The notes under the pieces are model-generated. The model was not told where the DNA came from. It was given only the letters and a program-made list of their open reading frames with translations, and searched no databases. From NCBI GenBank assembly GCA_003647095.1, contig QMME01000003.1, forward strand, positions 1-35,756: a stretch of DNA of 35,756 bases. The letters are read 5' to 3'. The number at the start of each line of letters is the position of its first letter. The stretch's first letter is position 1. This document shows positions 6,927 through 15,897 of the stretch, one piece after another. The translations under genes and the position numbers were made by a program. This DNA comes from Deltaproteobacteria bacterium (GTDB lineage: Bacteria; Myxococcota; B64-G9).

Positions 6927-6935
6927 TGCTATAAT
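6927..6935 (+). promoter_or_regulatory. Extended -10 promoter (TGcTATAAT) for the histidine-kinase operon
   Basis: Consensus TATAAT with TGN extension in an AT-rich stretch, about 75 bp upstream of the kinase start. Confidence 0.55.
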
Positions 6936-7008: not shown

Positions 7009-8532
7009 ATGCCGGAAGACACAGGCTTGCAAGGTGATGGTCGGCCGGATGATTCCACCAGCATCGGCAAGCTGGACAAGATCCAGCAGGCCCTGGAAAA
7101 CAGGCCTCGGGTGAGCATTCGTGCGCGCATCGCCGCGGTGTTTGCCATCCTGTTCGTGCTCATGTGTACCGTCACCGTCTCGGCGGTGCTGCTGTTGCAG
7201 CAGGTGCGGCAGAAGCAGGTGTTTTTCGAGAAGGTCAGCCACTTCGTCTTCGAGTTACAGCAGGCCCGGCGCTTCGAGAAGAACTTCTTTCTGTATGGAA
7301 CCAACCTGCAGGAAGCCATTACCAATGTCCACGTTGCCCGAGCCTACCTGCGCAAGAACCAGTCCGAGATAGAAGCGGTCATCGGCGGGCAGGGCCTGCA
7401 GTCCATGTTGTCGGGTATCGCCAGCTACCAGAAGGCACTGGAGCAACTACTCGACAATCCGGCGCCGAGCCGGGATCGCAAGCGTATCGAGTCCGCCTTG
7501 CGCAAGTACGGTGCGTTGTTGATAAGCGATGCCGAGGATACCCTGGAGCGTGAGCGCCAGGCCATTCACTCCATGCTGCAGACTTCCATAATCGTGGCTC
7601 TGGGCTTTCTGGGATTCATGGTGGTGATGCTGGTTTTTTTCGCCGGCTTCATTACCCAGGCGGTGCTCAGGCCGCTGGGTCGCTTCATGCGTTATGCCGA
7701 TCGTATCGGCTCCGGCGATCTTTCGCCCATCACCCCGGCCCGCAAGTACCGCGACGAATTCAGCAGCCTGGCAATAGCTTTCAACCGGATGCTGCGCGAG
7801 TTGCTGCACCGGCACGAGCAACTGATCCAGTCGGAGAAAATGGCGGTGGTGGGCAACCTCACCTCTGGGATTGCCCACGAGTTGAACAATCCCCTGAACA
7901 ACATCGGCCTGTCGGTGGAGGCCTTGCTGGATGGCTTCGAGGAAATGGAGGCGGGGCAGATCCGTCATATTCTCGAGCAGGTATCCACCCAGGTGGATCG
8001 GGCCAGCGGCACGGTGCGTAACCTGCTTGATTTCACCCGCAAGGAACATCGTGTCTTTACCCGCCTGGACATCAACCAGGCGCTGCAGGAGACACTGAAG
8101 CTGGTAGAAAACGAGCGCCGTTTGGCGGGCGTGGAGTTGTCGTTGCAGCTGGGTGAAGATATTCCGGCCGTGCGGGGAAACCCCCGGGGCATGGAGCAGG
8201 TCTTCCTGAACCTGTTGCTCAACGCCATTCAGGCTCTTGGTGACGGCGGCCGGATAGAAGCCAGCAGCCGCTGCGAAGGCGGGCGGGTGATTGTCGAGAT
8301 AGCCGATGATGGGCCGGGAATAGCGGCGGAACACCTGGACCACATTTTCGAGCCCTTCTTCACCACCAAGGATCCCGGGCGGGGAACCGGCCTGGGGCTG
8401 TCGGTCAGCCAGGGCATCGTCCAGGAGCATGGCGGCACCATTTCCGTGACCAGTCAGCCGGGGCAGGGTACTCGATTCACCATCAGCCTGCCCATTGCAG
8501 AAGCTCTCCCGGGCAAGGAGGAAGGCATATGA
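7009..8532 (+). CDS. Membrane sensor histidine kinase (TM - sensor - TM - HAMP - HisKA - HATPase)
   Basis: Two hydrophobic TM segments, [26 protein letters not shown]-box [14 protein letters not shown], ATPase motifs DDGPGIA and [13 protein letters not shown]. Confidence 0.93.
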
Positions 8533-9458
8533 GTTTTTCGGTGTACTTGCCGGTCGCCGGCTGTGCCCTCAACATCTTCCTGTTGCTGGGGCTGGGCGGA
8601 CTGGTAGGGTTCCTGTCGGGACTGTTCGGGGTGGGCGGAGGGTTCTTGCTTACCCCGCTGCTGATCATGATCGGTGTGCCTCCCACCGTGGCGGCCGCCT
8701 CTGATTCCAACCAGATCGTGGCGGCCTCGGCGTCGGGCACCTATGCTCATGCCCGGGCCGGTTCGGTGGATTTCAAGATGGGCCTGCTGTTGCTGCTGGG
8801 CGGCATCGCCGGCGGTTCGGTAGGAGTGGTCTTCATCAAGATGCTGCGGGCCCTGGGAGCTGCTGATTTCGCCATCAAGATCACCTACATCATCATGCTG
8901 GGCGGCGTGGGCAGTTACATGTTCTTCGAGAGTCTTGGCAACCTGCGCGGTACCCGGGCGGTGGCGGCCGGTGGGGACAAATCCCGCCCCTCGGTCTATG
9001 CGCGTCTGGTGGAGGCGCTACCCTGGAAGATCCACTTCCAGCGCTCCCGGGTGACGCTATCGGTACTCATGCCGCTGCTGCTGGGGGTGCTGGTGGGCAT
9101 CCTGGCCGCCATCATGGGCGTCGGTGGGGGCTTCATCATGGTGCCGGTCATGGTTTACCTGCTGCGCATGCCCATGCACGTGGTGGTGGGAACCAGCCTG
9201 TTCCAGATACTGTTCACCTGTATCAACGTGACCGTTCTGCAGGCGGCGGTGAATCACACCGTGGATCTGGTGCTGGCGTTGCTGCTGCTGGCCGGTTCGG
9301 TCATCGGTGCACAGCTGGGTGCCAAGGTGAGCCGGCGCCTGAAGGCCGACCAGCTCAAGATTCTCATGGCCATCATTGTACTGGTGGTGATGGTCAAGAT
9401 GCTGGTGGGACTGCTCCTGGCCCCGGACATAATGCTGGCCTACAAGGGAGGGCACTGA
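8529..9458 (+). CDS. TauE/SafE family sulfite exporter-like permease
   Basis: LGGLVGFLSGLFGVGGGFLLTPLLIMIGVPPTVAAASDSNQIVAAS and second half ...GILAAIMGVGGGFIMVPVMVYLLRMP; ATGA overlap with the upstream kinase. Confidence 0.93.
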   Translation: MSFSVYLPVAGCALNIFLLLGLGGLVGFLSGLFGVGGGFLLTPLLIMIGVPPTVAAASDSNQIVAASASGTYAHARAGSVDFKMGLLLLLGGIAGGSVGVVFIKMLRALGAADFAIKITYIIMLGGVGSYMFFESLGNLRGTRAVAAGGDKSRPSVYARLVEALPWKIHFQRSRVTLSVLMPLLLGVLVGILAAIMGVGGGFIMVPVMVYLLRMPMHVVVGTSLFQILFTCINVTVLQAAVNHTVDLVLALLLLAGSVIGAQLGAKVSRRLKADQLKILMAIIVLVVMVKMLVGLLLAPDIMLAYKGGH

Positions 9459-9459
9459 C

Positions 9460-10215
9460 ATGGTGGCCCGGTTCGTGACAGTGTTGCTGTTGCTGGCGGC
9501 ACCGGCTCTGGCGGGCACGGGGTTGACCCTGCAGCCGGAGCGGGTTTCCGCCGGCATGTTCTTCGCCGGTGCCGACGTGGTAGTGCAAGCCCGGGTTCCC
9601 CGCGCCGAGCAGCTGGTGTTCGAGATCAGAGGCCAGCAGAAGACCTATCAGCTCAAGCGCAAGGGCAAGGCGTTGGGCTTGCTGTGGATGAACGTCGGCG
9701 ACCTGGAGATCAAGCATGCTCCGGAGCTTTACCTGCTGGCCTCCTCGGTCGATTGCCAACAGCTGGCTTCTCGGGAAGAGCTGGCCGGTCAGGGAGTAGG
9801 TCTCCCGGCCCTGCGGAGACAGCTGAGCAGCGACGGGCGCCCCCTGACTGCCGAGCTGTTCGAGGACTTCCTGAAGCTCAAGCAGTCAGAGGGCTTGTAC
9901 GAGTTCAGGTCCGGTGTGGTCGAGGTAGATGGAGATGACGCTGGTGACGTGGTCACTACCCGGGTAGTATTCCACCTGCCGGCCAAGGTTCCGCTGGGGA
10001 ACCATCGGGTTAGGGTGCTGGCTTTCAACCAGGGCCGGGGACGGGTACTGTACGAGAAGCCGCTGACCATCGAACAGGTGGGAGCGGCACGCTGGATAAC
10101 GGTGGTTGCCCACAACCATGGACTGCTTTACGGCATCGGGGCGGTGATCATCGCCCTGGTGGTGGGTTTGCTGACCGGCTTTCTTTTCGGCCTGGGTTCC
10201 AAGGGGGCCCACTAG
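9460..10215 (+). CDS. TIGR02186-like (Alph_Pro_TM) membrane-anchored protein
   Basis: Signal peptide, central RKGKALGLLWMNVGDLEIKHAPELYLLASS, C-terminal TM; immediately follows TauE/SafE, a typical neighbour of this family. Confidence 0.75.
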   Translation: MVARFVTVLLLLAAPALAGTGLTLQPERVSAGMFFAGADVVVQARVPRAEQLVFEIRGQQKTYQLKRKGKALGLLWMNVGDLEIKHAPELYLLASSVDCQQLASREELAGQGVGLPALRRQLSSDGRPLTAELFEDFLKLKQSEGLYEFRSGVVEVDGDDAGDVVTTRVVFHLPAKVPLGNHRVRVLAFNQGRGRVLYEKPLTIEQVGAARWITVVAHNHGLLYGIGAVIIALVVGLLTGFLFGLGSKGAH

Positions 10216-10227
10216 ATCGGAAGGACC

Positions 10228-12786
10228 TTGTCTCTCTGGAAAAAGTTGTTTTCGCACCCGCCGGCTAGCGAAACCAGCGAGGGCGTGCGTTTGCAGCTGG
10301 AGCGATTCCAGCAAATCGTCCAGCACAACAACAGCATACTTGCCCGCATCGCCGACGCCGGCGAGCAGCTCAGCGGTGAGTACATTTTCGACACCCAGTA
10401 CCTGCGCGACCTGGCCGAGAAGCTGGCCCAGGATGTACGGGCCGTGGTGCAGGCCCTGAACGAGCTCACCGGCGGTCGCTACCAGGAACTGGTAGAGATA
10501 GTATCGGACCTGGATTACCGCTTGCGGGCCATGCTGGAGGGACGTACCGTGACTCCGGCCGCAGCGGTGATCCTGCGGCTGGAAGAAATCGGAACCGAGC
10601 TGGCCGGGGTGGCCGGTGAGAAGATGGCGCGCCTGGGAGAACTGTCCCGCGTACTGGGAATACCGGTGCCGGCGGGAGTGGTGGTTTCGGCCGATGCCTG
10701 CCGGCGCTTCCTGGATGAACTGGGTATCACCACCATCGTCACGGCCAATCGGGAATTGCCCGGCGAGCAACTCCAGCAGTTGGCGGGCGAGTTGCAACAA
10801 CGCATCCTCGACGCCCGCGTTCCGCGTTGGCTGAGCAGGAACCTGCGCCGGGCGGCCCGGAAATTGCTACGGCAAAGCGGGGCTCACAGCCTGGCCGTGC
10901 GTAGCAGCGCCGTGGGCGAAGACGGAGAGGTTTCCTTCGCCGGCCAGTATCACACCGAGCTGGGAGTGTCGCCGGGCCGGATAGAGGACGCCTATCGCCG
11001 GGTGGTGGCCAGCCTGTTTTCCTCCCGGGTAGTGGAATACCGGCAAAGGCATGGCCTGGATCCCCTGGAGGGTTTGATGGCGGTGGGCATCCTGGCCATG
11101 GTGCCGGCGCGTGCTTCCGGTGTCGTCTATACCCTCGATCCCAATTCACCGGCCAGCGATGCCTTGCTGATCGGCGCCGGTTGGGGACTGGGCTGCTCGG
11201 TGGTGGATGGCAGCCAATCGGCGGATCGTTTCCTGGTGTCACGACGTCCTCCCCACGAGATAGTCGGCAGTTCGCTGGCCAGCAAGGAGTTCCAGGTGGT
11301 GACCACGCCGTTGCCGGGTACGCAGCGGCAAGCGGTAGCCCCGGAGCGGCACCAGGTGCCGGCCCTCACTCCCGAGCAACTGGCCGAGCTGGCCGGGCTG
11401 GCCCTGCGCGTGGAGCGCTACGGGCGCTGCGCCCAGGACATCGAGTGGGCCCTGGACGAGCAGGGGCGGCTGCTGCTGCTGCAGGCCCGGCCCCTGCGTG
11501 TTTCTCCGTCCTCTGCCGCCTCGACGGTAACCGTAGACAACGAGCGCTACCCGGTGTTGTTGCAGGGAAGAGGCGAGGTGGCCTGTCGCGGGGTGGGGTG
11601 CGGGCCGGTGTGGATACCGGGAGAACAGGCGTCGTTGAATGATGTCCCGGAACAGGCGGTGGTGGTGAGCCCCACGGCCACCCCGCGCCTGGCTGCCTGG
11701 CTGCCGCGGGCTGCGGCGGTGGTCACCGATGTTGGTAGTGCCACCGGCCACCTGGCGGCGGTGGCCCGGGAGTTTCGTATTCCCACCATTGTCGACACTC
11801 ATGTGGCCAGCCGGGTGCTGGTGCCGGGCGAGATGGTTACGGTTGATGCCGACGAGAACATCGTCTACCGCGGCGAGGTGGAGGAACTGATCAAGGAACA
11901 CCTGCTGCAGGAATCTTCCTTCGAGGAGAAGCGCGAGTTCCGCTTGCTCAGGCGCATGTTGCACCAAGTGGCTCCGCTGAACCTGGACGATCCCTCTTCC
12001 CGGAAGTTTTCTGCCGGCAACTGTCGCACCTACCACGATGTCATTCGCTTTGCCCACGAGATGGCCGTACGCGAGCTGGTAAGGGGAAGGTGGCTGCACG
12101 CGGCGCGGGCCGGGCAATCGGTATACCGGTTGGCGGTCGATATTCCCATCGATCTGCTGATCATAGACCTGGGAGGCGGTGTCGAAGTCCCGCCGGGCAG
12201 GAGCGAGGTGAGCCTGGAGGAGGTAACCAGCGCGCCATTGCTGTTTTTACTGCGGGGGCTGGTCGGCAAGGGGGTATGGGCCACCGAACCGGCGGACATG
12301 GACCTGGGGGGATTCATGTCCAGTGCCACGCGCACTTCCAGCCTGGCCACGCCTCTGACGGTTCAGCCCGAACAGAACGTGGCCATAGTCTCCACCCACT
12401 ATCTCAGCCTCAACCTCAAGCTGGGCTATCACTACAACCTGGTCAACTGTCGCCTGGCGGATGACGCCGGCGAGAATTTCGTGTATTTTAGGTTCGCCGG
12501 GGGAGTGACCGAGTTGGCCAGGCGTTCACGCCGGGCCATGTTTCTGCGTCGCGTTCTCGAGCGTTACGATTTTGTGGTAGAAAGCAAGGGAGATCTGGTG
12601 ATTGCCAGGCTGAAGATGGTCGATGGCGAGCGGCTACGAGGCAGTTTGGAGATGATTGGTCGCCTGGTGGGTTTCACCAGGCAGCTCGATATATACTTGC
12701 GCAGCGACGAATTGGTTGAGGCCTACGTGGAGAAGTTCCTCTCCGCTGCCGGTGGCACCCACGCGGCGGCGGGCACGGATGGCTGA
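10228..12786 (+). CDS. PEP-synthase-like protein (ATP-grasp PPDK_N + swivelling His domain) with atypical C-terminal region
   Basis: TTG start with upstream GGAAGG; AVRSSAVGEDGEVSFAGQYHTELG ATP-grasp motif; TDVGSATGHLAAVAREFRIPTIVDT swivel-His motif (His codon 11749-11751); no recognisable PEP-utilizers C-terminal barrel motifs. Confidence 0.85.
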   Translation: MSLWKKLFSHPPASETSEGVRLQLERFQQIVQHNNSILARIADAGEQLSGEYIFDTQYLRDLAEKLAQDVRAVVQALNELTGGRYQELVEIVSDLDYRLRAMLEGRTVTPAAAVILRLEEIGTELAGVAGEKMARLGELSRVLGIPVPAGVVVSADACRRFLDELGITTIVTANRELPGEQLQQLAGELQQRILDARVPRWLSRNLRRAARKLLRQSGAHSLAVRSSAVGEDGEVSFAGQYHTELGVSPGRIEDAYRRVVASLFSSRVVEYRQRHGLDPLEGLMAVGILAMVPARASGVVYTLDPNSPASDALLIGAGWGLGCSVVDGSQSADRFLVSRRPPHEIVGSSLASKEFQVVTTPLPGTQRQAVAPERHQVPALTPEQLAELAGLALRVERYGRCAQDIEWALDEQGRLLLLQARPLRVSPSSAASTVTVDNERYPVLLQGRGEVACRGVGCGPVWIPGEQASLNDVPEQAVVVSPTATPRLAAWLPRAAAVVTDVGSATGHLAAVAREFRIPTIVDTHVASRVLVPGEMVTVDADENIVYRGEVEELIKEHLLQESSFEEKREFRLLRRMLHQVAPLNLDDPSSRKFSAGNCRTYHDVIRFAHEMAVRELVRGRWLHAARAGQSVYRLAVDIPIDLLIIDLGGGVEVPPGRSEVSLEEVTSAPLLFLLRGLVGKGVWATEPADMDLGGFMSSATRTSSLATPLTVQPEQNVAIVSTHYLSLNLKLGYHYNLVNCRLADDAGENFVYFRFAGGVTELARRSRRAMFLRRVLERYDFVVESKGDLVIARLKMVDGERLRGSLEMIGRLVGFTRQLDIYLRSDELVEAYVEKFLSAAGGTHAAAGTDG

Positions 12787-12803
12787 AGCCCAGGGAGGTG
12801 CCA

Positions 12804-13202
12804 ATGGCCGACAAGGGAAAGGTGCTGGTGCTGGACGATGAAGAGATCGTCTGTGAAAGGGTGGCTGACAACCTTACCCGCAAGGGTCTCAGCGTGGAGA
12901 CCTTTACCGACAGCCAGCAAGCCATCGACAGGTTGGCCGGCCAGCAGTTCGACGTGGTGGTTACCGATCTGAAGATGAAGGGGCCCAGCGGCCTGGACGT
13001 GGTGCACTTCGTGCGCCAGAACCAGAGCGCCTGTGAAATGATCATCATCACCGGCTATGCTTCCATGGATGCGGCGCGCGAGGCCGAGTATTCCGGGGTG
13101 TACCAGTTCGTCACCAAGCCGTTTCGCATGGAAGATCTCTCCAAGCTGGTACTCAAGGCCGCACGCCGGGCTCGTTCCCGCAAGGGCAAGGTGGCACCGT
13201 GA
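12804..13202 (+). CDS. Receiver-only response regulator 1
   Basis: KVLVLDDEEIV..., VVTDLKM phospho-Asp motif, FVTKPF; no output domain (132 aa). Confidence 0.93.
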   Translation: MADKGKVLVLDDEEIVCERVADNLTRKGLSVETFTDSQQAIDRLAGQQFDVVVTDLKMKGPSGLDVVHFVRQNQSACEMIIITGYASMDAAREAEYSGVYQFVTKPFRMEDLSKLVLKAARRARSRKGKVAP

Positions 13203-13585
13203 GCGCCAAGAAGGTCATCCTGCTCGACGATGAGCCCATCGTCGGTGAGCGGTTGCAGCCGGCACTGGAGAAGGCCGGGTTCCAGGTGGAAAGCTACACC
13301 GACAGCCAGCAGGTGGTGGATCGGTTGGCCCGGGAGCGCTTCGACGTGCTGGTGACAGATCTGAAGATGCGCAAGCCGGACGGGTTGGAGGTCATGCGCT
13401 TTGCCAAGCGCCAGTGGCCGGGTATCAAGGTCATCATCATCACCGGCTTCGCCACCGTGGAGACCGCCACCGAGGCCATGCGCGAGGGGGCGGTGGAATT
13501 CATCGCCAAGCCGTTCAAGATCAGGGCCTTGCGCGATCTCATCTTGCGGATAACAGCGGATACGGAACAATCTCCCCCGTCCTGA
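13199..13585 (+). CDS. Receiver-only response regulator 2
   Basis: GTG start overlapping the previous stop; KVILLDDEPIVGERL..., VLVTDLKM, FIAKPF; no output domain (128 aa). Confidence 0.93.
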   Translation: MSAKKVILLDDEPIVGERLQPALEKAGFQVESYTDSQQVVDRLARERFDVLVTDLKMRKPDGLEVMRFAKRQWPGIKVIIITGFATVETATEAMREGAVEFIAKPFKIRALRDLILRITADTEQSPPS

Positions 13586-13635: not shown

Positions 13636-14313
13636 TCAACTCCCGGTACCGGGCGGGCGCAGGCGGCCGGCATGAATGTCTGCGCGGCGCGCGGGCAGGT
13701 CGGCCGAAGCCCGTTCCAGGTGGCTGGCCATGAGTATGCTTACCCCCTGCCGTTCGACCAGGTTCCTGATCAGCTCGAGCACCCGCTCGCGGACAACCTC
13801 GTCGAGCGAGGCGGTAACCTCGTCGAGCAGCAGTCCCGGGCAGTCGAGCACCAGGGCCCGGGCCAGGGCCACCAGCTTCTGCTCGCCCACAGAGAGCCGG
13901 TCGGCCCGCCGGCCGGCCAGGTGGGCGATACCCAGCTGCTCGAGCACGGCCCGGGCGCGTTGCCGCCGTTGCGGGCGCGGCACCCCGCGCAGGCGCAATC
14001 CGTAGGTGGTGTTACGCAGCACCGAGGTGGCGAACAGGTAGGGTGTTTGCTGCACCAGGGCCAGGCGCCGGCGTAGCTGCATGGGGGCCGGGGCCGTCCC
14101 CCGGTGAAAGGGTTTTCCCTGGAGGTGGATCGTTCCGGCCTCGAGATCGAGCAAGCCGGCCGCTGCCAGGATCAGGGTGCTCTTGCCGCTGCCGTTCTCA
14201 CCGCAGAGCAGGACCAGTTCGCCGCGACCCACGCTCAGTTCGTCGATGTGCAACACCGGCTGGCCGCCCCGCCGGACGCGCAGGTCCCGTATCGACAGGA
14301 AGGGTTCGCTCAT
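13636..14313 (-). CDS. tupC: Tungstate-type ABC transporter ATP-binding protein
   Basis: MSEPFLSIRDLRVRRGGQPVLHIDELSVGRGELVLLCGENGSGKSTLILAAAGLL ... LSVGEQKLVALARAL ... LLLDEVTASLDE; 4-bp overlap with permease. ORF track N-terminal extension is spurious. Confidence 0.88.
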   Translation of the reverse strand: MSEPFLSIRDLRVRRGGQPVLHIDELSVGRGELVLLCGENGSGKSTLILAAAGLLDLEAGTIHLQGKPFHRGTAPAPMQLRRRLALVQQTPYLFATSVLRNTTYGLRLRGVPRPQRRQRARAVLEQLGIAHLAGRRADRLSVGEQKLVALARALVLDCPGLLLDEVTASLDEVVRERVLELIRNLVERQGVSILMASHLERASADLPARRADIHAGRLRPPGTGS

Positions 14314-15002
14314 TTTTCCCCCCGCCGGCTCTGCAACATGCTGGCGGTCAGGTTGACCGCCAGGGCCACAACCAGCAGCACCACTCCCAGGGCCACCCCG
14401 CGGGCGAACTCTCCCTTGCCGGTCTCGAAGGCGATGCCGGTGGTGATGTTGCGGGTGGTGCCGCGAATATTGCCACCCACCATCATGGAGATACCCACCT
14501 CGGCGAACACCCGCCCGAAACCGGCGGCCACGGCGGCCACCAGGGCGGTGCGCATCTCCAGGGCCACCACCCGGGCAGCGCGCAGCCGCCCACCGCCCAG
14601 GCCCAGCACGGTGTGGCCGATACGGGGATCGGCCCGTTCCACGGCGGCCGCGCACAGGCCCACGATGATGGGAAAGGCCAGGATCACCTGGCCGACTACC
14701 ATGGCACCGCGGGTGTAGAGCAGGTTCAGCTCTCCCAGCGGACCGCGCCGGGTCAGAAACGCGTAGACCAGCAGGCCCACCAGCACCGTGGGCAGGGCCA
14801 TCAGGGTGTTGGCCAGTCCCAGCACCAGCCGGCGGCCGCGAAAGCGCCCCAGACCCAGGGCCAGCCCGGCCGGCAGGGCCAGCACGGTGGCCAGGCCGGT
14901 CGAGGTAAGCGACACGCTCAACGACACCCACACCGGACCCCATACCTCCGGGTCCAGCCGCAGCAGCAGGGAAATTCCCTGGACGGTTCCTTCCGCGATC
15001 AT
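14310..15002 (-). CDS. tupB: Tungstate-type ABC transporter permease
   Basis: Multi-TM; VSLTSTGLATVLALPAGLALGLGRFRGRR..., EVGISMMVGGNIRGTTRNITTGIAFETGKGEFARGVALG. Confidence 0.88.
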   Translation of the reverse strand: MIAEGTVQGISLLLRLDPEVWGPVWVSLSVSLTSTGLATVLALPAGLALGLGRFRGRRLVLGLANTLMALPTVLVGLLVYAFLTRRGPLGELNLLYTRGAMVVGQVILAFPIIVGLCAAAVERADPRIGHTVLGLGGGRLRAARVVALEMRTALVAAVAAGFGRVFAEVGISMMVGGNIRGTTRNITTGIAFETGKGEFARGVALGVVLLVVALAVNLTASMLQSRRGEK

Positions 15003-15009
15003 GACCCGG

Positions 15010-15897
15010 TTACGGGGACGGCGCCGGAGGAGGCGGCGTCACGGAGTTGCCGGCCGGCGCCGGCGGTTGCTGGCCGGGGGCCAGGGGGTGAAAGAGGACC
15101 CTGCCGCCCACCTTGAAGCCGGCGATCATCTGGCGGGCCCGGGGAGATTGCAGCCATCCCAGCAGGGCCAGTGCCTCGGGCAGGTGGGCCTGGGGATGCT
15201 TGACCGGGTTTACGGCCATGAACGAGTAGGGGTTTTGCAGCCGGGGATCGCCTTCCACCAGTATCACCAGGTCGAGCGCATCTTCGGCGCTGAGGAAAGT
15301 GGCCCGGTCGGTCAGGCAGTAGGCAGACTTCTCGTCGGCCAGGTTCAGGTTGAGACGCTGGCCGCGACCGGACTCCAGATACCAGCCTCCCCGGGGGTGT
15401 ACCCCCGCCGCCTGCCACAGGCGCAGCTCGGCCCGGTGGGTTCCCGACTGGTCACCGCGGGAGACGAAAGTGGCGGACGCCCGGGCGATCCGGGCCAGTG
15501 CCGCCACGGCATCCCGGCCCCGCACGGCGGCGGGGTCGGCCTGTGGACCCACCAGCACGAAGTCGTTGAACATGATGGTGGCGTGGTGGATGCCGAAGCC
15601 TGCGCCGACGAACTCGTCCTCGGCCTGGCGATCGTGCACCAGCACGGCATCGACGTCGCCGTTGCGGCCCAGTTGCAGCGCCTGGCCGGTACCCACGGCC
15701 AGCACCTGTACCGAGATGCCGCTGCGGGCCTCGAACGGTGGCAGGATGGTCTTGAGCAGGCCGGTGTTGTCCAGCGAGGTAGTGGAAGCCACCCGCAGCA
15801 CCCGGCCAGCACAGGGGCAGTCTCGAGGCTGTTGCCGGCAGGAACAGAGCAGGAGCGCCAGCGCCACGCTGCTTGCCAGTGCGAGTTTTCTTTTCAT
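15010..15897 (-). CDS. tupA: Tungstate-binding periplasmic (lipo)protein
   Basis: Lipobox LLLCSC; RVASTTSLDNTGLLKTILPPFEARSGISVQVLAVGTGQALQLGRNGDVDAVLVHDRQAEDEFVGAGFGIHHATIMFNDFVLVGP matches the TupA pattern. Confidence 0.87.
   Translation of the reverse strand: MKRKLALASSVALALLLCSCRQQPRDCPCAGRVLRVASTTSLDNTGLLKTILPPFEARSGISVQVLAVGTGQALQLGRNGDVDAVLVHDRQAEDEFVGAGFGIHHATIMFNDFVLVGPQADPAAVRGRDAVAALARIARASATFVSRGDQSGTHRAELRLWQAAGVHPRGGWYLESGRGQRLNLNLADEKSAYCLTDRATFLSAEDALDLVILVEGDPRLQNPYSFMAVNPVKHPQAHLPEALALLGWLQSPRARQMIAGFKVGGRVLFHPLAPGQQPPAPAGNSVTPPPPAPSP

Follow-up and report, generated by a model that had tools for sequence, protein, structure and literature searches.

In bacteria that carry dissimilatory sulfite reductase (DsrAB), a conserved set of genes probably governs how the cell moves sulfur anions across its membrane, since this set is almost confined to Dsr-type sulfur respirers. 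It is represented by six genes in the stretch of DNA analyzed here, 35,756 nucleotides of contig QMME01000003.1 from a Deltaproteobacteria bacterium (Myxococcota; GenBank assembly GCA_003647095.1), which is referred to throughout as the window. The six genes encode a sensor histidine kinase, a permease of the TauE/SafE family, a membrane protein of Pfam family PF09608, an enzyme that resembles phosphoenolpyruvate (PEP) synthase (PPS) and two single-domain response regulators (Table 1). On balance, we favor the view that they form a sulfur-oxyanion transport module under phospho-control in bacteria with dissimilatory sulfite reductase. The most distinctive component is the enzyme, in which a C-terminal domain that is apparently undescribed, here called the orphan domain, stands where the PEP/pyruvate barrel would be.

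The Orphan Domain Accompanies Dissimilatory Sulfite Reductase

The orphan domain has no match in Pfam and nothing significant among PDB sequences, and its AlphaFold2 model (predicted local distance difference test, pLDDT, 86; predicted template modeling score, pTM, 0.77) matched no PDB fold at E<=0.001. Weak fold matches (RecJ, arginine-kinase, Ig-like) obtained with models of this domain and of the PF09608 protein, none of which reached that threshold, were not used. Six residues are invariant across 89 near-full-length homologues (C599, H603, D604, H610, H735, and D821), and these could bind metal or phosphate.

The distribution of the domain follows that of DsrA, the presence of which was scored by the TIGR02064 cut-off. 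In the phylum of Desulfovibrio piger (296 genomes), DsrA was detected in 108 of the 110 genomes with the domain versus 39 of the 186 without it (Fisher p 2e-44, a value that ignores shared ancestry). Nine of 195 genomes in the window's own phylum have DsrA over the cut-off, and all four domain-bearing genomes are among them (p 2e-6, shared ancestry again being ignored); no orphan domain was found in four DsrA genomes of the window's family (G002-G005) when the window's single sequence served as the only query. Twenty-five genomes behind named loci were picked for their odd taxonomy, including Bacteroidetes, Zixibacteria, Acidobacteria, Nitrospirae, and Rhodocyclaceae. DsrA exceeded the cut-off in 21 of these and was present as clear pieces in two more, and the remaining two are draft metagenome-assembled genomes (MAGs). 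Among 279 Pseudomonadota genomes, the domain occurred only in a DsrA-positive Rhodocyclaceae MAG and was absent from the other 278. Hardly any occurrence of the orphan domain lies outside DsrAB organisms, and this strong tie to DsrAB supports the link to sulfur anions that had been proposed in the original prediction for the window.

The window's genome, which is 70% complete, itself carries dsrA, dsrB, dsrL-like, dsrN-like, dsrC, and dsrM genes on one contig (C31), and reductive DsrAB is known in Myxococcota (PMC10591310). The open reading frame (ORF) in the dsrD position of this genome (77 aa, L174:4064-4297:+) matched no family; this ORF and L175:7805-8041:+ lie right after dsrB, are 77-79 aa in length, resemble each other and have no DsrD match. 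Another genome, G077, holds five copies of the orphan domain (loci L050-L052 and L175), four of them on the dsrAB contig C33 at 73, 85, 87, and 134 kb, with dsrAB at ~101.5-103.7 kb. Two short paralogues that contain the domain have no recognizable ATP-grasp (L052:11169-12773:- and L051:6523-7707:-), and the first also lacks the phosphohistidine; these are possible regulatory or acceptor copies.

The Conventional Half of the Enzyme

In PEP synthases, the first half-reaction converts ATP to a phosphohistidine, AMP, and inorganic phosphate. The ATP-grasp residues R225-SSA-ED, E396, D404, E406, Q419, and R421 are conserved in the enzyme family, and the phosphohistidine position (His508, 11749-11751) is occupied by His in 88 of the 89 near-full-length homologues. 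Because these ATP-site residues and His508 are conserved, the first half-reaction is likely to take place in this family, and the PEP-synthase-like phosphotransfer enzyme foreseen in the original prediction likely has an active ATP half. The single exception is the homologue of D. piger (L104:4392-7100:+), which carries the orphan domain and has Arg at this position, which could reflect either an inactive protein or a local misalignment.

The likeness to PEP synthase ends after the phosphohistidine domain. PEP synthases from the PDB align with the window enzyme only as far as residue ~557, no Pfam match to a PEP/pyruvate barrel was found beyond the PF00391 domain, and the TIGR01418 (PEP synthase) score is 269.5 bits, under the cut-off of 739.75. 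A plasmid search with the enzyme as query returned nothing but ordinary PPS halves, and an apparent 1833-aa enzyme fusion in genome G256 proved to be only a long open frame with no additional domain.

Conservation of the Module

When the orphan-domain motif pattern was scanned over 84,980 species genomes, at least 116 stretches were obtained, nearly all of those listed being labelled Deltaproteobacteria or Desulfo- taxa, and neighborhoods were viewed within at most 8 kb. Among the 116 matches listed, to which all counts over 116 in this text refer, a TauE gene is near the enzyme in 37, whereas about 1.2% would be expected by chance (five copies in 3.4 Mb); a kinase or receiver is found in 81 and a DASS sulfate-type carrier in five. 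Two types of partner protein lie between TauE and the enzyme, namely PF09608 or a protein of ~228 aa, here called c4, for which Pfam gave no convincing match. Uninterrupted TauE-PF09608-enzyme runs on a single strand occur at 8/116 loci and uninterrupted TauE-c4-enzyme runs at 9/116, and at L179 and L180 the gene order is kinase-receiver(s)-TauE-c4-enzyme. All 30 PF09608 genes retrieved from the phylum of D. piger directly follow a TauE gene; the enzyme gene lies downstream of PF09608 at 17 of these loci and a universal-stress-type gene at 11, and 54 of the 55 PF09608-bearing genomes in this phylum have the orphan domain. The module is conserved far past close relatives, in agreement with the original prediction, which had proposed a neighborhood search as its check.

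The order of genes around the enzyme differs from genome to genome, as might be seen if the two-component genes and the PEP-synthase-like gene were accidental, separately transcribed neighbors; the contiguity of TauE, PF09608, and the enzyme in 8/116 matches and its occurrence in 17/30 PF09608 loci, along with window junctions that overlap or almost touch, render this explanation highly improbable. A domain tree places the window enzyme inside a clade of 16 PF09608-linked enzymes (support 0.999, lower within) and apart from most copies of its own phylum, a grouping that suggests transfer or old paralogy.

As many as eight copies of the enzyme were scored in a single genome, and most copies (79/116) are away from TauE. 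These features, together with the conserved catalytic residues and an invariant C/H/D/H/H set in the orphan domain that resembles an active site, would suit a metabolic enzyme whose orphan domain holds the substrate to be phosphorylated, either a small molecule or a protein from the sulfite-reduction pathway; the genes for the transporter and the two-component system would then only be co-regulated with it. We regard this as plausible yet unlikely, because copies recur beside kinases or receivers (81/116) and different transporters, a setting more in keeping with signaling or gating than with a single step of metabolism. At L050, L074, L075, L080, L091, and L180, PEP-synthase-like genes occur near DASS (Na_sulph_symp) carriers, which suggests that more than one type of anion carrier is served by the enzyme. 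At least two PEP-synthase-like genes are adjacent, sometimes with a receiver between them, at L063, L082, L088, L113, L144, and L167.

Membrane Partners and Their C-Terminal Histidines

The PF09608 protein has a signal-peptide-like N-terminus, a beta-sandwich ectodomain and a single C-terminal transmembrane helix (~221-246), and its AlphaFold2 model (pLDDT 91.6, pTM 0.82) matched no fold at E<=0.001. The label TIGR02186-like, which it had been given originally, stands as a resemblance but not as membership: the score against this NCBI family, of which no mention was found in the literature searched, is 85.5 bits, under the cut-off of 255.25, and judged by profile scores the protein is a member of PF09608 that merely resembles TIGR02186.

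A final His is present in 37/37 PF09608 proteins of alignment A4 (the window and mostly DsrAB-type genomes) and in 0/30 of those from Pseudomonadota, at whose loci no PEP-synthase-like gene, kinase or receiver was found within 1.5 kb. All 30 PF09608-linked TauE proteins examined (L181-L210) likewise end in His, as -GGH (29) or -LGH (1), and so do some others beyond this set; a final His is also present in 7/30 TauE proteins of Pseudomonadota and in 19 of 21 complete c4 proteins, whereas no His tail was seen in DASS carriers. The C-terminal transmembrane helix in the model of the PF09608 protein probably puts the tail of this protein in the cytoplasm, on the side of the enzyme. The His tails might serve for docking, accept phosphoryl groups or bind metal. 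The idea that they exist solely because of the enzyme is weakened by a genome, G330, that has the tails but no enzyme, and by the seven Pseudomonadota TauE proteins that end in His.

A Proposed Transport Module Under Phospho-Control

According to the explanation we favor, TauE and its PF09608 partner would constitute a permease whose substrate is an anion such as sulfite, thiosulfate or sulfate. The membrane kinase would sense a periplasmic signal and phosphorylate the two lone receivers, which would work via protein contact, as they have no DNA-binding output. The enzyme would spend ATP to phosphorylate its swivelling histidine. Usual PEP synthesis should be impossible for it because the orphan domain replaces the PEP/pyruvate barrel, and so the phosphoryl group would pass to another acceptor or serve as a switch, most likely one that gates or regulates the permease at the cytoplasmic side. 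A more specific version holds that the enzyme is an ATP-driven, receiver-controlled phosphohistidine switch that uses the orphan domain either to dock on the membrane subunits at their invariant C-terminal histidines or to phosphorylate these residues; in this full form we consider the proposal improbable.

Several points weigh against control of sulfur-anion transport. Membership in the TauE family leaves both substrate and direction unfixed, and at 79/116 enzyme loci TauE is missing from the stretch viewed (at most 8 kb), so that control of TauE may not be the enzyme's sole role. The 39 DsrA genomes without the orphan domain amount to 27% of the DsrA genomes in the phylum of D. piger. The homology of the window enzyme to DVU0246 of Desulfovibrio, discussed below, is judged from annotation and gene order. 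Finally, G330 (L245, G330:C1:355000-370000) has DsrA and both TauE and PF09608 ending in GGH with no PEP-synthase-like enzyme, so the His tails are not strictly tied to the enzyme. The G330 locus also holds kinase, NtrC-like regulator, and universal stress protein genes.

Genetic evidence is available from the Desulfovibrio nitrate cluster (DVU0251-DVU0245 and Dde_0597-Dde_0605), in which TauE is accompanied by a kinase, a receiver and a PEP-synthase-like protein (Korte et al., 2014; PMC4001038). Insertions in the TauE, receiver or PEP-synthase-like gene of D. alaskensis and D. vulgaris confer resistance to nitrate, not nitrite, and nitrate-cluster mutants of D. alaskensis (G20) are mildly sick on thiosulfate according to unpublished data cited there. 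The authors proposed a leaky thiosulfate transporter (PMC4001038), and later authors repeat the loss of putative thiosulfate transporters (PMC9723548). These phenotypes bear on whether the module might instead export sulfur compounds as a detoxification system against sulfite or sulfide stress. TauE is named for a proposed sulfite exporter, as cited in PMC3949148, and universal-stress-protein genes are frequent neighbors, both of which would suit such a role; loss of the Desulfovibrio cluster, however, protects from added nitrate and slightly impairs growth on thiosulfate (PMC4001038), which suggests entry rather than efflux, and export therefore seems to us a minority possibility.

Gene Layout in the Window

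Domains of the six ORFs were called with Pfam and NCBIfam profiles at curated cut-offs. All six are on the + strand between 7009 and 13585, with 4-nt overlaps at two junctions (8529/8532 and 13199/13202) and gaps of 1 nt (9458/9460), 12 nt (10215/10228), and 11 nt (12786/12798) at the others. The six co-directional, tightly joined genes of the original prediction were recovered at the same coordinates, strand and junctions; Pfam likewise bore out its kinase, permease, barrel-less enzyme and two output-less receivers, and the extended -10 element it placed ahead of them is a perfect match. The H-box His of the kinase and the Asp and Lys residues of both receivers are present. Hydropathy of the kinase indicates hydrophobic segments at 44-62 and 194-212 with a presumed periplasmic region of ~130 residues between them. 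The PF01925 profile is matched end to end by the window TauE (positions 1-237/237), one of five TauE-family genes in its genome.

Table 1. Positions in the window of the six module genes, their domains and tails, and the putative promoter.
Feature	Position	Strand	Basis
Extended -10 promoter-like element TGCTATAAT	6927..6935	+	Perfect match; putative promoter
Sensor histidine kinase	7009..8532	+	Pfam HAMP + HisKA + HATPase_c; H-box His290 in HisKA
TauE/SafE-family (TSUP) anion permease	8529..9458	+	PF01925, 170 bits vs cut-off 32.6
TauE C-terminal Gly-Gly-His tail	9447..9455	+	Tail comparison of PF09608-linked TauE proteins
PF09608 (Alph_Pro_TM) partner protein	9460..10215	+	152 bits vs cut-off 24.5
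PF09608 protein C-terminal Lys-Gly-Ala-His tail	10201..10212	+	Alignment A4
PEP-synthase-like enzyme, 852 aa, TTG start	10228..12786	+	Pfam/NCBIfam, PDB alignment
Enzyme N-terminal extension, residues ~20-110	10285..10557	+	Family-conserved; F27, N34, L88
Enzyme ATP-grasp domain PPDK_N, residues 129-435	10612..11532	+	PF01326, 232 bits
Swivelling phosphohistidine domain, residues 474-543	11647..11856	+	PF00391, 61 bits
Orphan C-terminal domain, ~290 residues, replaces PEP barrel	11890..12783	+	Alignment A3, AlphaFold2 model
Orphan-domain motif C(R/K)TxHDxxRFxHE	12022-12060	+	Alignment
Single-domain response regulator 1	12798..13202	+	Response_reg alone; Asp57, Lys107
Single-domain response regulator 2	13199..13585	+	Response_reg alone; Asp54, Lys104

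The promoter-like element TGCTATAAT has a single match in the window, where 0.05 would be expected. Upstream of the kinase lies an ATP synthase operon (atpA, atpD, atpC); with 172 nt between atpC and the start of the kinase gene, transcription may read through from this operon into the module. On the other side, a TupA-like binding protein, a TupB-like permease and an ABC ATPase (tungstate transport) are encoded on the - strand at 13639-15897, convergent with the module; their scores are under the equivalog cut-offs.

Comparison with Known Systems

The enzyme shares with PEP synthase (TIGR01418) an ATP-grasp followed by a swivelling phosphohistidine domain in identical order and differs in having no PEP/pyruvate barrel. 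Rifamycin phosphotransferase, a PPS-like enzyme that hands phosphate to a non-pyruvate acceptor, offers a mechanistic precedent; it differs in that the window enzyme scores 190.7 bits vs 999 for NF041857, to which the orphan domain is foreign. The alphaproteobacterial TauE-TIGR02186 pair (e.g., on pSymB of Sinorhizobium meliloti) also has TauE directly upstream of PF09608, but no PEP-synthase-like gene, kinase or receiver was found within 1.5 kb of it and its PF09608 tail lacks the His. TSUP-type genes occur in all 44 sulfate-reducer genomes of a comparison of sulfate carriers, in the accessible text of which no description of the present module was found (PMC5840216).

The closest relative is the nitrate cluster, which likewise groups a TauE-type permease, a kinase, a lone receiver and a PPDK_N plus mobile-domain protein in a DsrAB organism, and L179 and L180 have the same core composition with a c4 partner. 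By position only, c4 would correspond to the DVU0250 family. The window differs in having PF09608 where the DVU0250 protein stands and two receivers, in lacking a PtxB/PhnD protein and a phosphatase among its six genes, and in an enzyme of 852 aa vs about 745 for DVU0246. The original prediction of an uncharacterised system is thus partly supported: the module is conserved but not wholly unknown, given the knock-out phenotypes of the nitrate cluster (PMC4001038), and the orphan domain, DsrAB link, and C-terminal histidines were missing from it.

Little is understood of how sulfate and sulfite reducers control the uptake of their electron acceptors, and no mechanism accompanied the 2014 report of the nitrate cluster. 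The cluster is now tied to a large family with an undescribed domain nearly restricted to DsrAB organisms, which is relevant to nitrate control of oil-field souring and to marker genes for dissimilatory sulfur metabolism. If true, a phosphohistidine switch would be a new mode of anion-transport gating in these organisms, for which the C-terminal His tails provide a specific target for testing. Taken as a whole, the genetics of the nitrate cluster were already known, whereas the link to DsrAB, the orphan domain and the invariant C-terminal His of the PF09608 partner are new.

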